This document shows, in pieces, positions 21,463 to 28,393 of a DNA stretch of 64,000 nt. The first letter of the stretch is position 1, and each line of letters begins with the position of its first letter. The stretch is from the NCBI RefSeq assembly GCF_014876775.1, contig NZ_CP062310.1:1403699-1467698 (forward strand), given 5' to 3'. The notes under the pieces are model-generated. The model saw nothing but the letters and a program-made list of their open reading frames with translations, did not search any database and was not told the DNA's origin. Both the position numbers and the translations under genes were made by a program. The stretch comes from Infirmifilum lucidum (GTDB taxonomy: Archaea > Thermoproteota > Thermoprotei > Thermofilales > Thermofilaceae).

Positions 21463-22677
21463 TTATCCAAGGGCGTGCCGCACTACGTAGTCTACAATCC
21501 TCTCTATTTCAACCCTTACGCTCTCGGGTATCCCCGAAACCTCTGCAGACAGGAACCCCCTGATGAGCAGGGCTCTAGCCTCCTCCTCGCTGAACCCCTT
21601 GGACATCAAGTACTCTATCTTCTCCCCGGCAATCATACCGATAGCCGCCTCGTGGGTGAGCTCAACCTCTTGCGCGCTCGAGGAGAGTGTGGGTATCGCA
21701 TTTATATTGGACGAGTTGTCCATCAGTAGGCCCAGGCACTCAATATGTCCCTTTGTCCCCCCAGTCCTCGCCTCGATGTTTCCCCGGGAGTACACCTTTG
21801 CCCCCCTGCTGGCCAGGACTCTCGAGATAAGCTCGGCGCTCGAGCCCCGATCCTCTAGAACCGCGACACCACCAATATCGTAGACACCGTTGCCTGTACC
21901 AGCGATTACGGAAACCATCTTCGCATGGGCGCCCCTAGCCAGGTACACCTTTGGCTCAGTCTGGATAGAAGCTACTGGGCTGTATATCGCGTAGTAGCTT
22001 ATGTACTGGCCCCCCTCTTCGACTCTGACGACAGTCCTAGGCCTCACGTGGGTTCCCTCGCCCCAGCTGTGAAGCATCGTAAAAACTAGTTTAGCCCCGC
22101 TGGCCACATAGAACTCTGACACTCCAATGTGCAGGCCACCTCTAGTACCGTGGGGGACTAAACAGCCAGTCGTTACGACAACCTCAGCCCCCTCATCCAC
22201 GTAAACAACGTTGTGGGCGTGCTGCACTTCCTCGTACCCCGTGAAGAGGCTGAGGCACGTGTAGACAGGCCAGGGAACTTTTACGCCCGGAGGGACGTAG
22301 ACAAAGTACCCTGCCTCACTGCCATAGAGGTATGTGTGGGCTGTGTACTTGTCTGTCCTCGGGTCTATGAGCCTCCACGAGAGCTCCTGGGCTAGCTTAT
22401 TCTCCTTTAGCGCTCTGTTTAGCGGCTCGACAATCACTCCGATGGATCTGAATTTCTCAGCCATAGCCTTGGCTATTACGGTTTCCCCGACCTGCAGGTA
22501 GCTCAGCCGATCGGGCGTTACCCCAACCTTCTTCTGTATAGACTCCTCGACTCCCACCCCATCCTGTAGCGGGGGTCTAAACGCCTTGTACACTGCGAGG
22601 TCGACGTCCGGTCCCAGAGGTGAAGGCTTGTTAAGGGCCTGCAGGATCTCCTCCCTACTCACTGCACGCGCCATCAA
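21463..22677 (-). CDS. sufB: SufB/SmsB-type Fe-S cluster scaffold protein
   Basis: A 404-residue SufB/SufD-family beta-helix protein, the scaffold on which Fe-S clusters are built with the SufC ATPase. Recognisable segments are HAHNVVYVDEGAEV, the beta-helix core around LHSWGEGTHVRPRT, and the C-terminal LMSKGFSEEEARALLIRGF, which contacts SufC. There is only one scaffold gene and no SufD, SufS or SufE beside it, matching the minimal archaeal SufCB (SMS) arrangement. The start overlaps sufC by 23 nt. Confidence 0.88.
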   Translation of the reverse strand: MMARAVSREEILQALNKPSPLGPDVDLAVYKAFRPPLQDGVGVEESIQKKVGVTPDRLSYLQVGETVIAKAMAEKFRSIGVIVEPLNRALKENKLAQELSWRLIDPRTDKYTAHTYLYGSEAGYFVYVPPGVKVPWPVYTCLSLFTGYEEVQHAHNVVYVDEGAEVVVTTGCLVPHGTRGGLHIGVSEFYVASGAKLVFTMLHSWGEGTHVRPRTVVRVEEGGQYISYYAIYSPVASIQTEPKVYLARGAHAKMVSVIAGTGNGVYDIGGVAVLEDRGSSAELISRVLASRGAKVYSRGNIEARTGGTKGHIECLGLLMDNSSNINAIPTLSSSAQEVELTHEAAIGMIAGEKIEYLMSKGFSEEEARALLIRGFLSAEVSGIPESVRVEIERIVDYVVRHALG

Positions 22678-23374
22678 ACCCCCTCTTCTCGAGCCTGTTT
22701 AGAATTTCGAGCGTGTCGCCTCTGCACTCTATTCTGCCACTGTTGAAGACATAGCCTGTAGCCCCTCCACCGAGGTATTCGGCCAGTAACCTCGTGTGGG
22801 TCACGACGACCACCCCTGCCCCGAGGTCTTGGACGAGGAAGTTTATCGCCCTAGCTATTAACTTGACGCTGTCAACGTCAACACCGCTGTCGGGCTCGTC
22901 TAGTAACGCGAACCTGGGCTTCATCAATGCCGTCAGGAAAACCTCGACGCGTTTCCGCTCCCCGCCGCTAAACCCCCTGAACGCATCCCTTTCAACAAGG
23001 TGCCTGATCTCGAGCATATCGACGAGTCGTTGCAGAAGGCTATGCGTCCCGTAGCGCTCTGCTATCAGGCTCGCGAGCCTCGAGACCCTAACTCCCGTTA
23101 GCTCGGGTGGGATCTGGTAGGCGAGTGCTATACCTCTGCGGGCTCTCTCGAAAGCCGGGAAGGGCGTCACGTCTTCCCCGTCAAGTAGCACTCTGCCGCT
23201 GGCCACGCGAACCCTGGGCAACCCGGCTATAGCCGAGAGGAGTGTAGTCTTGCCGGCTCCGTTCGGGCCGAACAGCAGTACCTTGTCTCCACTCTGCATC
23301 GTGAGGCTGACGCCCCTGACTATCTCGTTACCATCGACTAGTGCTACGAGGCTGTCGACTTCAAGCCTAGACAT
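22655..23374 (-). CDS. sufC: SufC/SmsC Fe-S assembly ATPase
   Basis: A 239-residue ABC-type ATPase with Walker A FGPNGAGKTTLL, signature FSGGERKRVEVF, Walker B FALLDEPDSGVD and H-loop VVVTHTRLL. The ERKR-containing signature and DEPDSGVDVD are diagnostic of SufC rather than transport ATPases. It lies directly upstream of sufB with a 23-nt overlap; a dimer of each subunit would form the SufBC scaffold complex. Confidence 0.9.
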   Translation of the reverse strand: MSRLEVDSLVALVDGNEIVRGVSLTMQSGDKVLLFGPNGAGKTTLLSAIAGLPRVRVASGRVLLDGEDVTPFPAFERARRGIALAYQIPPELTGVRVSRLASLIAERYGTHSLLQRLVDMLEIRHLVERDAFRGFSGGERKRVEVFLTALMKPRFALLDEPDSGVDVDSVKLIARAINFLVQDLGAGVVVVTHTRLLAEYLGGGATGYVFNSGRIECRGDTLEILNRLEKRGFDGACSE

Positions 23375-23424: not shown

Positions 23425-24411
23425 TTACTTGCGAGAGACGCGGTACAGGATCCTCTTGGGGTTTACTGGATCCTCGAGCTTCTCTATGAAGCCCCGCGAG
23501 GAGAGCAGTGCCAGAGCGTGCCTGACGGTTCTCTCGGGGAGGCCTGTCAGATCAATTATCTCGCTGATTCCGAGCTCGCCTTCGTCCTCGAGAACCTTAA
23601 GCACGAACTTAGCACTGGGAGGCAGCTCCCTCAGCTCCTCGTAAGTGAACTTCCTCTTAGCCAGCGCAGTCCCCCTATCCTCGGCTACGACCATGTTGAG
23701 GTAGCCGGCAACCCCTATCCGAACCTCCTCCTCTACTTCAACCCTCTCAACGCCGTCGGCTATGACCTCTACTGATGTCCTGGAAGAAACCCCTCCCACC
23801 CGTATGCTACTCCTCAGGTGCGCGACGACGGGCCGCCTCCCCGGCTCTACGCTATTAACCGAGATTATGACCAGGGCTTCCGCGTCGAGCAGGACTACAG
23901 GCCCCCCAGCGGAGAGGGCGTATGCTGTTGAGCCGAGGGGCGTAGCAACTATCAAACCGTCGGAGGTGTCGTGCCAGAGGAAGTCTCCATTAACCTCGAG
24001 GTCATACTCCAGCAGTGTCGCGCTCCTTCTAGGGAACACGGCGACTTCGTTCACGGCTCTCACAGTCTTCGTGCCGTCGACGAAAGCGGATAAAACGGGG
24101 AGTCTCAGCGGTGTAACTCTGCCTCTCTCCAAGAGCTCTAGTACTTGAGCGCACTTATCCATGGGCGTTAAAGCAATGTAGCCCGTGTAAGACGGGGGAG
24201 CCACTGGCAGAACCGTTGTTTCATAGGGGAGGCTGTGGAGAGCCTGGAGGATTTCCCTGTCAAGCCCCAGGATGACTACGAACTTAGCCTGGGCTTCTTC
24301 GATCCTTTCTAGAACACTTGCAGAGACAGAGTAGCCACGCTTAACCAGTTCGTCGAGGAGCCTCCTAGCATACTTCTCGAGGCGCGAAGGGTAGACTAGC
24401 TGGGCCTCCAC
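23425..24411 (-). CDS. NAD-kinase-like domain fused to a winged-helix DNA-binding domain
   Basis: The 328-residue protein has an NAD kinase fold (about 1-245): VNEVAVF (120-126) matches the NE/D motif and DGLIVATPLGSTAYALSAGG (151-170) the NAD-binding signature. The normally invariant GGDG is G-L-D-R (49-52): the aspartate is kept but both flanking glycines are changed. Residues about 262-328 form a winged helix-turn-helix (ISEIIDLTGLPERTVRHALA, then a basic wing). Divergent from nadA-nadC-nadX across 75 bp. The fusion and position suggest an NAD(P)-responsive regulator; a bona fide NAD kinase with a regulatory tail is the alternative. Confidence 0.8.
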   Translation of the reverse strand: MEAQLVYPSRLEKYARRLLDELVKRGYSVSASVLERIEEAQAKFVVILGLDREILQALHSLPYETTVLPVAPPSYTGYIALTPMDKCAQVLELLERGRVTPLRLPVLSAFVDGTKTVRAVNEVAVFPRRSATLLEYDLEVNGDFLWHDTSDGLIVATPLGSTAYALSAGGPVVLLDAEALVIISVNSVEPGRRPVVAHLRSSIRVGGVSSRTSVEVIADGVERVEVEEEVRIGVAGYLNMVVAEDRGTALAKRKFTYEELRELPPSAKFVLKVLEDEGELGISEIIDLTGLPERTVRHALALLSSRGFIEKLEDPVNPKRILYRVSRK

Positions 24412-24441
24412 TGTAGAGACCTATACACTGAGCTCCCAAGT

Positions 24442-24451
24442 CTTTAAAATA
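24442..24451. promoter_or_regulatory. Palindromic TATA box shared by NAD kinase-like gene and nadA
   Basis: CTTTAAAATA contains the palindrome TTTAAA in the middle of the 75-bp divergent intergenic region. It is about 40 nt upstream of the nadA ATG and about 35 nt upstream of the minus-strand ATG, giving short leaders in both directions. The inverted hexamers AAGTCT (24438-24443) and AGACTT (24479-24484) bracket the nadA start region and could be operator halves. Confidence 0.45.
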
Positions 24452-24486
24452 CGTTTCAGTAATTGCAGAGAATACTCTAGACTTCT

Positions 24487-25458
24487 ATGCAAACATGGCA
24501 GCGAACTGTTATATTGCTAGGGCTCTGTGGGAACTTGATCCACATGATCCTAGAGGAGATAAACAGGCTTAAGAGAGTTAGGAACGCTGTAGTCCTAGCA
24601 CACAACTACCAGCTGCCCGAGGTTCAGGACATAGCCGACTTCGTGGGCGATAGCCTCGAGCTAGCGTTAAAAGCTCAGGAAGTAGACGCCGACGTCGTCG
24701 TAATGGCTGGTGTGAGGTTCATGGCCGAGATGGTCGCCCTCCTAAACCCCGACAAGACAGTCTTACACCCTAGCCCCGACGCGGGGTGCCCCCTGGCCGA
24801 CTTCCTCTCCAAGAGCGTCATAGAGGAATACAGGAGGGAACACCCGGGAGCCCCGCTGGTAGTATACGTCAACTCTCCACTCGAGGCAAAAGCCCTCGCA
24901 GACTACGTTGTAACGAGCTCCTCTGCCGTGAAAGTAATCTCGAAGCTAGACTCAGACACCATCCTGTTCGGCCCAGACAAGAACCTAGCAGACTTCGTAG
25001 CAGAGAAAACCCAGAAGAACGTGATCCCCGTTCCGGTGTCGGGGCACTGCCCCGTCCACGAGTTTCTAATCTCGAGGTACTACGTCGAGAAAGCGCTCAG
25101 AGAGCACCCGGGCTACGAGCTAGTAGTTCACCCAGAAACCCCGAGGGACGTCAGGAGGCTGGCGAACTTCGTCGGTAGCACAAGCCAGATGCTGCGCTAC
25201 ATCCAGGAGACCCAGGCCGACAAGATACTTGTAGGCACGGAGGAGGGCTTGGTCTACCGGGCAAGGAAGCTAGCCCCGGGGAAGGACATCGTCCCAGTCA
25301 ACCCAATAGCTGTCTGCGCGAACATGAAGAAGATAACACCCTACAACATACTAAAGTCTCTTGACAGGCTAGAGCCACGAGTAACTCTCGACAGAGCTCT
25401 CGCCTCAAGAGCGCTGGAGGTCGTGGAGAGGAGCCTCGAGCTGGTGAAGGGCAGGTGA
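24487..25458 (+). CDS. nadA: Quinolinate synthase NadA
   Basis: A 323-residue NadA, which condenses iminoaspartate with dihydroxyacetone phosphate to quinolinate using a [4Fe-4S] cluster. Core motifs: AHNYQLPEVQDIADFVGDS, the three cluster cysteines in DAGCPLAD, SGHCPVHEF and IAVCANMK, and the VGTEEGLVYR segment. The first 19 residues before MILEEINRLKR are unusual, so ATG 24544 may be the real start; ATG 24487 fits the TATA box better. It is first gene of a nadA-nadC-nadX operon. Confidence 0.95.
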   Translation: MQTWQRTVILLGLCGNLIHMILEEINRLKRVRNAVVLAHNYQLPEVQDIADFVGDSLELALKAQEVDADVVVMAGVRFMAEMVALLNPDKTVLHPSPDAGCPLADFLSKSVIEEYRREHPGAPLVVYVNSPLEAKALADYVVTSSSAVKVISKLDSDTILFGPDKNLADFVAEKTQKNVIPVPVSGHCPVHEFLISRYYVEKALREHPGYELVVHPETPRDVRRLANFVGSTSQMLRYIQETQADKILVGTEEGLVYRARKLAPGKDIVPVNPIAVCANMKKITPYNILKSLDRLEPRVTLDRALASRALEVVERSLELVKGR

Positions 25459-26303
25459 GGAGTAGAGTTCTAGCCGAGAAGATACTCAAATGGGTAGAAG
25501 AAGACGCCCCCCTAGGCGATCTAACCAGCGACTTTGTAGTGCCCCGGGGCAGTGTGGCTAGAGCAGTCATCCTGCTCAAGAGCAGTGAAGCTGTCGTCGC
25601 GTGCACCGAGGACATAGCTGAAGCACTGGCGCATCTCGGGATACAAGTAGAGGGGCTCGAGCCAAGTGGGTCTCTAGTGGGGAAGGGTGCCTCGGTCATG
25701 GCCCTAAAGGGGGATGCTAGGGACATACTAGTCCTGGAAAGAACCCTACTCAACCTCCTGAACTACTGTATGGGCGTGGCGACAACTGCCAGAATGTTCG
25801 TCGAGGCTGCCAGGAGGGTGGATCCCAGGGTCAGAGTGGCTGTGACCAGGAAAACTCCACCAGGGCTGAGGGAGATAGCAAAGCAGGCCGCACGTGCGGG
25901 CGGAGCTGACACTCACAGGCTCTCGCTGAGCGACGCGATACTGATCAAGGACAACCACATAACGCTGGCGGGGGGCCTCGAGGAGGCTGTCAGGAGGGCC
26001 CTCGCGAGGAAGAGTTTCATCCACAAGGTCGAGGTAGAGGTTCAGAGCGCCGAGGACGCCCTAAAGGCCGCCAGGCTCGGGGTGGACGTAGTCATGCTGG
26101 ACAACGTGAGCCCAGAAGAAGTCGAGAGGGCCGTAGAGCTCCTCGAGGCCGAAGGGCTTAGGAGTAGAGTTCTCGTCGAGGCCAGCGGTGGCATAACGCT
26201 GGACAACATAGCGGCGTACGTGAAGGCCGGGCCAGACGTTGTTAGCTCCAGCGCCATAACGATGAGGCCACTCCCAGTTGACATAAGCCTCGAGGTGGTC
26301 TAG
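25455..26303 (+). CDS. nadC: Nicotinate-nucleotide pyrophosphorylase NadC
   Basis: A 282-residue quinolinate phosphoribosyltransferase. Visible motifs: EDAPLGDLTSDF at the N-terminus, ARMFVEAAR, TRKTPPGLREIAKQAARAGG, HRLSLSDAILIKDNH and EVEVQSAEDALKA, ending with the ribose-phosphate loop EASGGITLDN. It converts quinolinate and PRPP to nicotinate mononucleotide. The GTG start overlaps the nadA stop by 4 nt. Confidence 0.95.
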   Translation: MRSRVLAEKILKWVEEDAPLGDLTSDFVVPRGSVARAVILLKSSEAVVACTEDIAEALAHLGIQVEGLEPSGSLVGKGASVMALKGDARDILVLERTLLNLLNYCMGVATTARMFVEAARRVDPRVRVAVTRKTPPGLREIAKQAARAGGADTHRLSLSDAILIKDNHITLAGGLEEAVRRALARKSFIHKVEVEVQSAEDALKAARLGVDVVMLDNVSPEEVERAVELLEAEGLRSRVLVEASGGITLDNIAAYVKAGPDVVSSSAITMRPLPVDISLEVV

Positions 26304-27086
26304 TTGAAGAGAGTAGCCATTATCGGCTGTGGGGCTATCGGGGGCGTCATCGCCAGGAGCATAGACAGAGGGGATGTGGACGCGGAGCTCGTATCGCTCA
26401 TGGACACCCAGCCGGAGGCCTGCACCAAGTTGAGGGAAAGCTTCACTAGGCAGAAGCCCTCTGTAGCGACGAGCATAGAGGAGGTTTTAAGCCTGAGGCC
26501 CGACATAGTGGTAGAAGCCGCTAGCCAGGAAGCTGTCGGGCAGTACGCAGAAAGAGTGCTTGAATTCTCAGACTTGGTCGTCCTCAGCGTAGGCGCCCTC
26601 CTGGACGCAGAAGTCTACCAGAAGATAGTCGAAGTAACAGCTAGGACGGGCAAGAGGATATACATACCCTCAGGAGCTATCGGCGGGCTTGACGTCCTCA
26701 GAGCATACGCAAGAGCAGGCGTTTCGAGGCTCAGGCTCACGACGCGGAAGCCTGCCCGCGCCCTCGGCGCAACAGTGACTACTCCTACGGTAGTCTTCAG
26801 AGGCAAGGCTAGCCAGGCAGTTAAAGCCTACCCGAAGAGCCTAAATGTCGCTGCAACAATCTCCCTGGCAGCTGGAGTAGAAGCCGAAGTAGAGCTCATA
26901 GCAGACCCCAACACGGACAGGAACATCCACGAGATCGAGGCAGAGTCCCCTGCGGGCAGGCTCAGGATAGTCCTCGAAAACGTCCCGTCCCCAGAGAACC
27001 CAAGGACAAGCTACCTGGCTGCTCTCTCAGCAGTAACACTATTACAGGAGCTCTGTAGCCCTAAGCGGGCGCTAGCCTTCTACTAA
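26304..27086 (+). CDS. nadX: L-aspartate dehydrogenase NadX
   Basis: A 260-residue aspartate dehydrogenase (COG1712) that oxidises aspartate to iminoaspartate with NAD(P), replacing aspartate oxidase NadB. The Rossmann motif VAIIGCGAIGGVIARSID opens the protein; VEAASQEAVGQYAE, PSGAIGGLDVLRAY and the catalytic-histidine segment DRNIHEIEAES follow. The TTG start lies immediately after the nadC stop. An oxygen-independent enzyme here suits an anaerobe. Confidence 0.93.
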   Translation: MKRVAIIGCGAIGGVIARSIDRGDVDAELVSLMDTQPEACTKLRESFTRQKPSVATSIEEVLSLRPDIVVEAASQEAVGQYAERVLEFSDLVVLSVGALLDAEVYQKIVEVTARTGKRIYIPSGAIGGLDVLRAYARAGVSRLRLTTRKPARALGATVTTPTVVFRGKASQAVKAYPKSLNVAATISLAAGVEAEVELIADPNTDRNIHEIEAESPAGRLRIVLENVPSPENPRTSYLAALSAVTLLQELCSPKRALAFY

Positions 27087-27113: not shown

Positions 27114-27176
27114 TATACCTAGGTTATACTTTTTTATAACCTTAGGTATATAATGAGCCTTAGGTTGTACCTTAGG
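27114..27176 (+). promoter_or_regulatory. AbiE operator-promoter: inverted repeat and CCTTAGG array
   Basis: A near-perfect inverted repeat, TATACCTAGGTTAT (27114-27127) and ATAACCTTAGGTATA (27136-27150), encloses the TATA stretch TTTTTATAAC (27131-27140), which lies about 20 nt before ATG 27153. Related cores recur: CCTAGG 27118, CCTTAGG 27140, 27158 and 27170, the last two inside the coding start. A dimeric repressor bound here would block TBP; the co-encoded AbiEi-like protein is the obvious candidate. Confidence 0.65.
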
Positions 27177-27794
27177 AGGCGCGAGCATAGGGAGATAGCC
27201 GAACTCCAAGATATCATCGTGAGTACTCTATACAGTGTACTAAAGCCGCCCCCTGTCCTGCATGGCGGGACTGTGATTTGGAGGGTATACAAGTCCCCTC
27301 GTTTCTCCGAGGACATTGACCTGTACCACGAGTCAGTAGGCCTATACAGGAGGAGCATCGAGAGCGAGTTATCAGCCCTTAAACTGAACCTGCGTAAGTT
27401 CTGGGAAACACCTAATGCATTTTATATTAGCATAAGTGACGGCCGAGAAGTCAGAGTCGAGGCCACTAAAAGGAACGTGCTGGATGCCTCCGTTGAGGCC
27501 GAGTTCGAACTCATAGACGGGGGCTATATTGTCGTCCGCACCCTTCCTCCAGACTTGCTACTCAAAGAGAAAATTCAAGCATACATCGACAGGAGGAAAG
27601 CCCGCGACCTCTACGACGTGTTCTACCTCTTGAACTACGTAGACCCGGAGACAATGAGAGAAGACGCTAGAAAACTCGTTGAGCTCCTTCACGAACCTCC
27701 GGGAGACTGGGCCGAGCTCAGAGTTCTGATACTGCGGGGACTCCCGCCCAGCTTCGAAACCGTGAAGCAGAGAATCCTGGGGGTGGTGAGATGA
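27153..27794 (+). CDS. AbiEii-like nucleotidyltransferase toxin
   Basis: A 213-residue protein of the AbiEii/AbiGii family (type IV toxin-antitoxin). The signature HGGTVIWRVY followed by RFSEDIDLY contains the DxD metal ligands (Asp54, Asp56). A C-terminal ARDLYDVFYLLN segment is also family-typical. Relatives transfer nucleotides to tRNA or other targets. It is first in a two-gene unit; its stop overlaps the start of the antitoxin-like gene by 4 nt. Confidence 0.85.
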   Translation: MSLRLYLRRREHREIAELQDIIVSTLYSVLKPPPVLHGGTVIWRVYKSPRFSEDIDLYHESVGLYRRSIESELSALKLNLRKFWETPNAFYISISDGREVRVEATKRNVLDASVEAEFELIDGGYIVVRTLPPDLLLKEKIQAYIDRRKARDLYDVFYLLNYVDPETMREDARKLVELLHEPPGDWAELRVLILRGLPPSFETVKQRILGVVR

Positions 27795-28393
27795 AGTATG
27801 TAGGCAAAATCCGGAAGTACTTCAACAGGCCTGATAAACCAGTGTTCTCGTACTATGAGGTTCTAGCTCTAAACATACCCTCGGGCTACGCGAAGCTCCT
27901 ACTCCACAACATGGTGCGCAGGGGAGAGATTATTAGGCTCAGGAAGGGCTGGTACAGCTTTCACAGGGATCCCCTAGCCTTCATATACACCCTACCACCG
28001 CACACAGCCTACTACGGCCTGGGGTTTGCAGCCTACATGCACGGGGCCTGGGTTCAGGTGCCGAACCCCGAAATACTCACCTACGCGGCCCCCAGGAAGA
28101 TCAGAACAGGCATACACGTAGTGCTAGAGACACCCGTCATAGTGCACGGCATCGCCAGGAAGCTCTTCGGCTCGTACACGCTCGTAAGGCACAACCACTG
28201 GCTCCTACCTATCTCAACCCCCGAGAAGACGCTCGCGGACATGCTCTACTTCGACTACCCGTTCCTGGACGAGGTACTCGACGAACTCATCGCCAGGATC
28301 AATGTAGGCGAACTGAGGAAGATAATTGCCGAGTACCCCTACCCCGAGCGCGTCAAGCGAAGGCTCAAAACAGTAATTAAGCAGATTTCATGA
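27791..28393 (+). CDS. AbiEi-like antitoxin/transcriptional repressor
   Basis: A 200-residue protein with an N-terminal winged helix (about 1-60: FSYYEVLALNIPSGYAKLLL, then RRGEIIRLRKGWYSF) and an AbiEi-type C-terminal domain (AYYGLGFAAYMHG, ISTPEKTLADMLYF). In characterised AbiE systems this protein blocks the toxin phenotype and represses the operon by binding inverted repeats. The toxin-first order is the reverse of the lactococcal/streptococcal abiE order. The repeated CCTTAGG elements upstream are the likely binding sites. Confidence 0.83.
   Translation: MKYVGKIRKYFNRPDKPVFSYYEVLALNIPSGYAKLLLHNMVRRGEIIRLRKGWYSFHRDPLAFIYTLPPHTAYYGLGFAAYMHGAWVQVPNPEILTYAAPRKIRTGIHVVLETPVIVHGIARKLFGSYTLVRHNHWLLPISTPEKTLADMLYFDYPFLDEVLDELIARINVGELRKIIAEYPYPERVKRRLKTVIKQIS

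Follow-up and report, generated by a model that had tools for sequence, protein, structure and literature searches.

A protein that joins the fold of NAD kinase to a DNA-binding domain, and whose gene faces an operon for NAD synthesis, raises the question of whether it acts as an enzyme or as a regulator of that operon. One such gene lies in the 64,000-nucleotide stretch of Infirmifilum lucidum DNA analyzed here (the window). The initial annotation of this stretch had proposed that the kinase domain has become an NAD(P)-binding sensor that controls the quinolinate-pathway genes. From comparative sequence analysis, we consider it highly likely that the fused protein acts as a transcription factor for NAD supply, that is, a fusion of NAD kinase and winged helix-turn-helix (HTH) of single origin that binds a palindrome, responds to NAD(P), activates nadA-nadC-nadX, and regulates its own gene. 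The gene and the parts of its product are as follows.

23425–24411, minus strand: fused gene, NAD-kinase fold plus C-terminal winged HTH, 328 amino acids, GTG start, proposed regulator of NAD supply (open reading frame, Pfam, AlphaFold, Foldseek)
23437–23619, minus strand: winged HTH of the fused protein, residues 265–325 (Pfam, alignment A1, AlphaFold)
23752–24267, minus strand: motifs of the NAD-binding core, GLDR (residues 49–52), NE (121–122), DGLIVATPLGSTAYALSAGG (151–170), and ADG (218–220) (alignment; residue roles from PMC8553519)

Pfam, AlphaFold, and Foldseek together confirmed the fusion of an NAD-kinase fold to a winged HTH in this gene. The Pfam family NAD_kinase_C matches residues 121–234 with 72.4 bits, and HTH_IclR matches residues 270–311 with 28.5 bits, above its cut-off. 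In the AlphaFold model (mean pLDDT 87.6), a helical linker connects a complete NAD-kinase fold to a typical winged HTH (residues 265–325), and the C-terminal domain is thus present in the structure prediction as first described. By its HTH_IclR match and modeled fold this domain is IclR/MarR/TrmB-like and has a DNA-recognition helix, and its PPSAK and RTVR sequences are invariant in alignment A1. When the model was compared with solved structures using Foldseek, the closest were NAD kinases (top match 1yt5, E 2e-24). None of the NCBIfam NAD-kinase models reached its equivalog cut-off on the fused protein (best 89.6 bits versus 316).

The host is an archaeon, which the initial annotation did not note. 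Its genome (complete, 1.63 Mb) encodes a canonical NAD kinase with a GGDG motif elsewhere (C1:915645), which makes the fused protein a second copy. A search for homologs with the same domain order, which had been suggested as a check, found the fusion in 12 of the 27 genomes of the order and in 148 of 397 genomes sampled from the phylum (full or near-full matches to the fused protein); a further NAD-kinase match is present in all but two of these 148. Named carriers are Thermofilaceae, Desulfurococcales, Brockarchaeota, Nitrosopumilus, Nitrososphaeraceae, Nitrosocaldus, and Caldivirga, together with a Njordarchaeon, an Asgard archaeon, and Jingweiarchaeum. The fusion is kept in 101 distinct sequences, which is far beyond chance. 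In a tree, the canonical enzymes group as one set, and the fused proteins are compatible with having arisen once, the placement of a few long branches being uncertain. Both the fold and the fusion are supported by these comparisons, and we propose that a winged HTH was joined once, in archaea, to a duplicated NAD kinase.

The NAD-kinase motifs reported earlier were found where they had been placed (GLDR at residues 49–52, NE at 121–122, and TPLGSTAYALSAGG at 157–170). The replacement of GGDG by GLDR also stands, but the motif is not wholly lost, since the catalytic Asp is retained and the change touches only the two glycines. In NAD kinase, the Asp of GGDG activates the 2'-OH of NAD; in Ppnk of M. 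tuberculosis, Asp, Asn, Glu, Thr, and Tyr residues are required for activity, and the dimer contact forms the NAD site (PMC8553519). The window protein keeps the catalytic Asp and N(E/D) and lacks an intact GGDG. Among the 101 distinct fused proteins, N(E/D) is present in all and the motif Asp in 99, and the Thr and Tyr alongside them are conserved in nearly all. The fourth motif position is R or K in 89 of the 101, a G-x-D-R/K sequence that marks the family, and GGDG is present in 14 of 14 canonical relatives aligned with them. Absence of the PH histidine was dropped as a sign of lost catalysis because canonical archaeal NAD kinases lack this histidine too. Based on these features, the NAD site of the fused proteins looks intact and their phosphate-donor loop altered, which therefore indicates a sensor role and is not proof that catalysis was lost. 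Conservation of the NAD-site residues, alteration of the donor loop, and the existence of a separate canonical kinase all agree with an NAD(P)-binding sensor, and we infer both that NAD(P) is the ligand and that kinase activity has been lost.

The features that face the fused gene, including those in the spacer, are as follows.

24442–24449, minus strand: probable TATA box of the fused gene, TTTTAAAG, read from the sequence
24455–24467, no strand: operator-like site A, TTCAGTAATTGCA, immediately upstream of the fused-gene TATA box; as partner site at -33 it scores 9.5 bits; conservation in L032 is partial
24488–24500, no strand: operator-like site B, TGCAAACATGGCA, immediately upstream of the nadA BRE/TATA region, 33 bp from A; 14.5 bits, p=0.003 versus shuffles
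24509–24514, plus strand: probable TATA box of nadA, TTATAT, likewise read from the sequence
24544–25458, plus strand: nadA, quinolinate synthase, 304 amino acids with the corrected start (longest open reading frame from 24487) (profile matches, orthologs, TATA position)
25455–26303, plus strand: nadC, quinolinate phosphoribosyltransferase (TIGR00078 above cut-off)
26304–27086, plus strand: nadX, L-aspartate dehydrogenase (TIGR03855 above cut-off)

The divergence of the fused gene from nadA-nadC-nadX was borne out, but the 75-bp spacer first given for it was not; nadA probably starts at 24544, which makes the spacer 132 bp. The start at ATG 24487, and the 75-bp spacer with it, was rejected because it overlaps the conserved palindrome at 24488–24500; the ortholog in L032 and all relatives start later. 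The ATG at 24544 is 30 bp past the TATA box, and the automatic annotation of this start is likely wrong here. Two gene pairs flank the divergent unit and are kept in both L032 and L033: an AbiEii/AbiEi-type toxin-antitoxin-like pair (27153–28393) directly 3' of nadX, kept with the nad operon, and a SufC/SufB-D-like pair (21463–23374) that shares the strand of the fused gene and lies just 3' of it.

The predicted operator is the inverted repeat TGCAA-N3-TTGCA, which occurs upstream of nadA in divergent loci, usually in tandem and beside the BRE/TATA region. When a motif was trained by EM on the 110-bp regions preceding nadA at 15 divergent loci, the palindrome GCAA-N3-TTGC was found ab initio, with a log-likelihood ratio of 55.6 versus 19.3 (sd 2.8) in dinucleotide shuffles. 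The two sites of a tandem are 30–33 bp apart, or three helical turns, and at this spacing the mean best partner score is 3.65 versus -6.5 (sd 1.1) with shuffled flanks. Comparison among loci thus supports both the operator and its spacing. About 8–14 bp separate the end of the nadA-proximal palindrome from the TATA box, and at several Thermofilaceae loci the fused gene's start codon falls within the distal site. In ammonia-oxidizing archaea (AOA), the best site is about 43–45 bp upstream of the nadA TATA box.

Loci outside the training set also contain this palindrome. With the motif matrix, sites were found at held-out loci with other divergent neighbors, namely a major facilitator superfamily (MFS) gene (L135, GGCAATAATTGCC) and a sodium:solute symporter gene (L139, TGCAATAATTGCA), and four held-out Sulfolobaceae loci carry the palindrome GGCAAAAAATGCC. 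The most stringent test was in trans: a site of at least 8 bits is present at the nadA promoter in 19 of 19 AOA whose fused gene lies elsewhere, the best of them a perfect GGCAATAATTGCC, versus 0 of 36 such promoters in genomes that lack the fused gene (Fisher p 4e-15, a statistic that ignores kinship and counts close relatives as if they were independent). The comparison of genomes with and without the fused protein therefore shows that occurrence of the operator depends on its presence. Among the Thermoproteales-type families f8 and f9, 5 of 10 nadA promoters have a site of at least 8 bits and about half have no clear site; one of the five, a 12.5-bit site in L225, is probably due to chance because it appears within the upstream coding region. 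The motif matrix found no site in the fused gene's own promoter in AOA, f9, purB-linked, and co-directional f8 loci, or upstream of the fused gene in L093 and L116. The sequence GGCAANNNTTGCC has a single occurrence in each of two complete genomes (G143 and G167), at nadA in both; its one occurrence in G264 is at the fused gene. When the host genome was scanned with TGCAANNNTKGCM, only one of the 12 matches, the one at nadA, was clearly in an NAD promoter. Most of the others lie inside open reading frames, and we therefore claim no wider regulon. The predicted operator would be bound by the fused protein itself.

The arrangement seen in the window recurs across archaea. The fused gene is divergent from nadA in 9 of 9 nadA-bearing genomes of the order, and the homolog search found the same pairing again in Brockarchaeota and Desulfurococcales records. 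In one genome (G022, L033 9043–10410), a deletion removed nadA, nadC, and the N termini of the fused gene and of nadX, and the remnants are still open frames. In another (G051, L170), the fused gene has an internal TAA and nadA is only a remnant elsewhere in the genome, an apparent joint decay of the two genes. Pyrobaculum-type genomes can have the fused gene preceding nadA in the same direction, and in some of them nadC and nadX occupy one frame of ∼510 amino acids (L168:7725–9248, with domains scanned in this locus, and L162, L165, and L169).

Other fused genes have different neighbors. A nicotinate phosphoribosyltransferase gene follows the fused gene downstream in L093 and L106 and lies close to it in L116, there with NadM. 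The last of these is a Jingweiarchaeum NAD cluster (L116:113–3595) comprising the fused regulator, an odd second NAD-kinase-like protein (with GGDG but GLTAY), NadM, and nicotinate phosphoribosyltransferase. Further loci have divergent transporter genes (MFS, sodium:solute symporter, amino-acid permease); the assignment of the MFS transporters as NiaP is unproven, as they match only a broad aromatic-acid/H+ symporter subfamily, below its cut-off. In a Sulfolobaceae genus that lacks nadA (L140–L142, L171, and L172), the fused gene is divergent from a transporter of the amino-acid-permease family, a candidate vitamin or precursor transporter, and a palindrome lies near the transporter start. The fused gene is present without nadA in several genomes and therefore has other targets or roles there. 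In AOA, Caldivirga-type genomes (f9), and some other lineages, it is flanked by unrelated genes (for a PfkB kinase, PyrG, and ribosomal proteins); in ammonia oxidizers it is far from nadA, between the PfkB-kinase gene and pyrG. The PfkB-family kinase just upstream of it there (L152:4996–5865 and the AOA loci) may or may not have a substrate linked to NAD, perhaps nicotinate riboside.

Based on the conserved divergence from nadA, the palindrome in cis and in trans, its absence where the fused protein is absent, and the independent NAD-salvage neighbors, control of the quinolinate-pathway genes, as first proposed, is strongly supported. The same holds for the conclusion that the fused proteins are a new archaeal family of transcription factors that control NAD supply and are built from NAD kinase.

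In the mechanism that we propose, the kinase core of the regulator has very likely kept its ability to bind NAD or NADP. Since the NAD kinases known so far are homo-multimers with the NAD site at the dimer contact, ligand binding can be coupled to the positioning of two HTHs. A regulator dimer would bind TGCAA-N3-TTGCA, and the two sites three helical turns apart would accommodate two dimers, or one tetramer, in the spacer that divides the fused gene from nadA. At low NAD(P), the regulator would promote transcription of nadA-nadC-nadX, and at high NAD(P) it would bind the ligand and cease to do so. It would also control its own gene, because the second site adjoins that gene's TATA box or covers its start codon.

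The sign of regulation is the part of this mechanism with the closest rival. Activation in archaea is associated with binding sites located upstream of the BRE/TATA region, and repression with sites located downstream of it (PMC4158304). The palindrome is upstream of the nadA BRE/TATA region, and activation of nadA with autorepression is therefore slightly favored. An appreciable possibility, short of an even chance, is that a protein with the same operator and targets is a classical repressor, with the NAD(P)-bound form beside the BRE blocking TFB/TBP by a logic like that of NrtR and NiaR. The bacterial NAD regulators NrtR, NiaR, and NadR do repress, site A touches the fused gene's BRE, and the distal site over that gene's own start codon at several Thermofilaceae loci is in a repressing position. 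However, the nadA-proximal palindrome, 8–14 bp before the TATA box, is outside the usual repressor position, as is the still more distant best site in AOA. The ligand itself could instead be an NAD precursor or breakdown product (nicotinate mononucleotide, quinolinate, or ADP-ribose), as NrtR responds to ADP-ribose and NiaR to nicotinate instead of NAD, and the donor-loop R/K could bind a phosphate; we regard this as unlikely, given that the residues that form the NAD site in NAD kinases are conserved.

Two further explanations keep the protein an enzyme. It is quite unlikely that it both phosphorylates NAD and regulates, like NadR with its retained enzyme activities: the Asp, N(E/D), Thr, and Tyr needed in Ppnk (PMC8553519) are conserved in nearly all fused proteins, but the donor loop differs from that of the canonical enzymes as described above and a separate canonical kinase is also present. 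A simple second NAD kinase with an uninvolved HTH-like tail, linked to nadA only as an operon neighbor and with the palindrome belonging to another factor, would agree with the fused gene not being beside NAD genes in AOA and several other lineages. This account was rejected as the main reading on the operator evidence, and we hold it to be very improbable, since the palindrome tracks the fused gene to unrelated transporter promoters in cis and to nadA in trans, is absent where the fused gene is absent, and is accompanied by an HTH invariant in PPSAK and RTVR. We thus retain the NAD(P)-responsive transcription factor as the preferred reading.

The claim that the fused protein is built differently from NrtR, NiaR, and NadR is borne out by the domain scans. 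It resembles NAD kinase (PpnK/NadK, PF01513/PF20143) in its whole fold, NE/D motif, region II, and catalytic Asp, but differs in having G-x-D-R/K for GGDG, an added C-terminal winged HTH, and a canonical kinase alongside. NrtR, the bacterial Nudix-related regulator, likewise joins an enzyme fold of NAD metabolism to a winged HTH, controls nad genes, and can be autoregulated, and the fused protein shares its C-terminal placement of the winged HTH and, by prediction, its NAD-gene targets. NrtR, however, has a Nudix fold and senses ADP-ribose, whereas the fused protein is archaeal, has an NAD-kinase fold and its own operator, and gave no Nudix match in Pfam. NadR of enterobacteria also combines enzyme domains of NAD metabolism with an HTH that controls NAD synthesis genes, but its HTH is N-terminal and it has no NAD-kinase fold; its NMN adenylyltransferase and ribosylnicotinamide kinase domains were not found in the fused protein with Pfam or NCBIfam. 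NiaR of the Bacillus/Clostridium group controls nad genes and also niacin transport, but it is niacin-responsive and consists of an HTH and a 3H domain with no enzyme fold, and Pfam found no 3H domain in the fused protein. In ROK repressors (NagC, Mlc), a sugar-kinase fold is re-used as a ligand sensor with an HTH; there the kinase fold is a different one and the ligands are sugars. The control of NAD genes by an enzyme fold plus HTH in NrtR and NadR follows the same logic as that proposed here (PMC6800001). The nearest match in the literature is a Nudix gene deletion in Sulfolobus acidocaldarius that induces nadA/nadB, an indirect effect. The open-access literature that we searched describes no dedicated transcription factor for archaeal NAD synthesis, and we claim no priority.

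In this case protein, operator, and target are predicted together, and the family provides a clean case of a kinase turned transcriptional sensor, with the signature visible in the donor loop. Databases probably list the fused proteins as NAD kinases, and many annotations may therefore be wrong. On balance, we lean toward an ancient archaeal NAD(P) sensor, a duplicate of NAD kinase with a G-x-D-R/K donor loop whose dimer would read NAD(P) and switch NAD synthesis through the same operator from hyperthermophiles to ammonia oxidizers, and which may have been re-used for nicotinate salvage or vitamin uptake in some lineages. The family spans a phylum, from hot-spring species to the globally abundant ammonia-oxidizing archaea.
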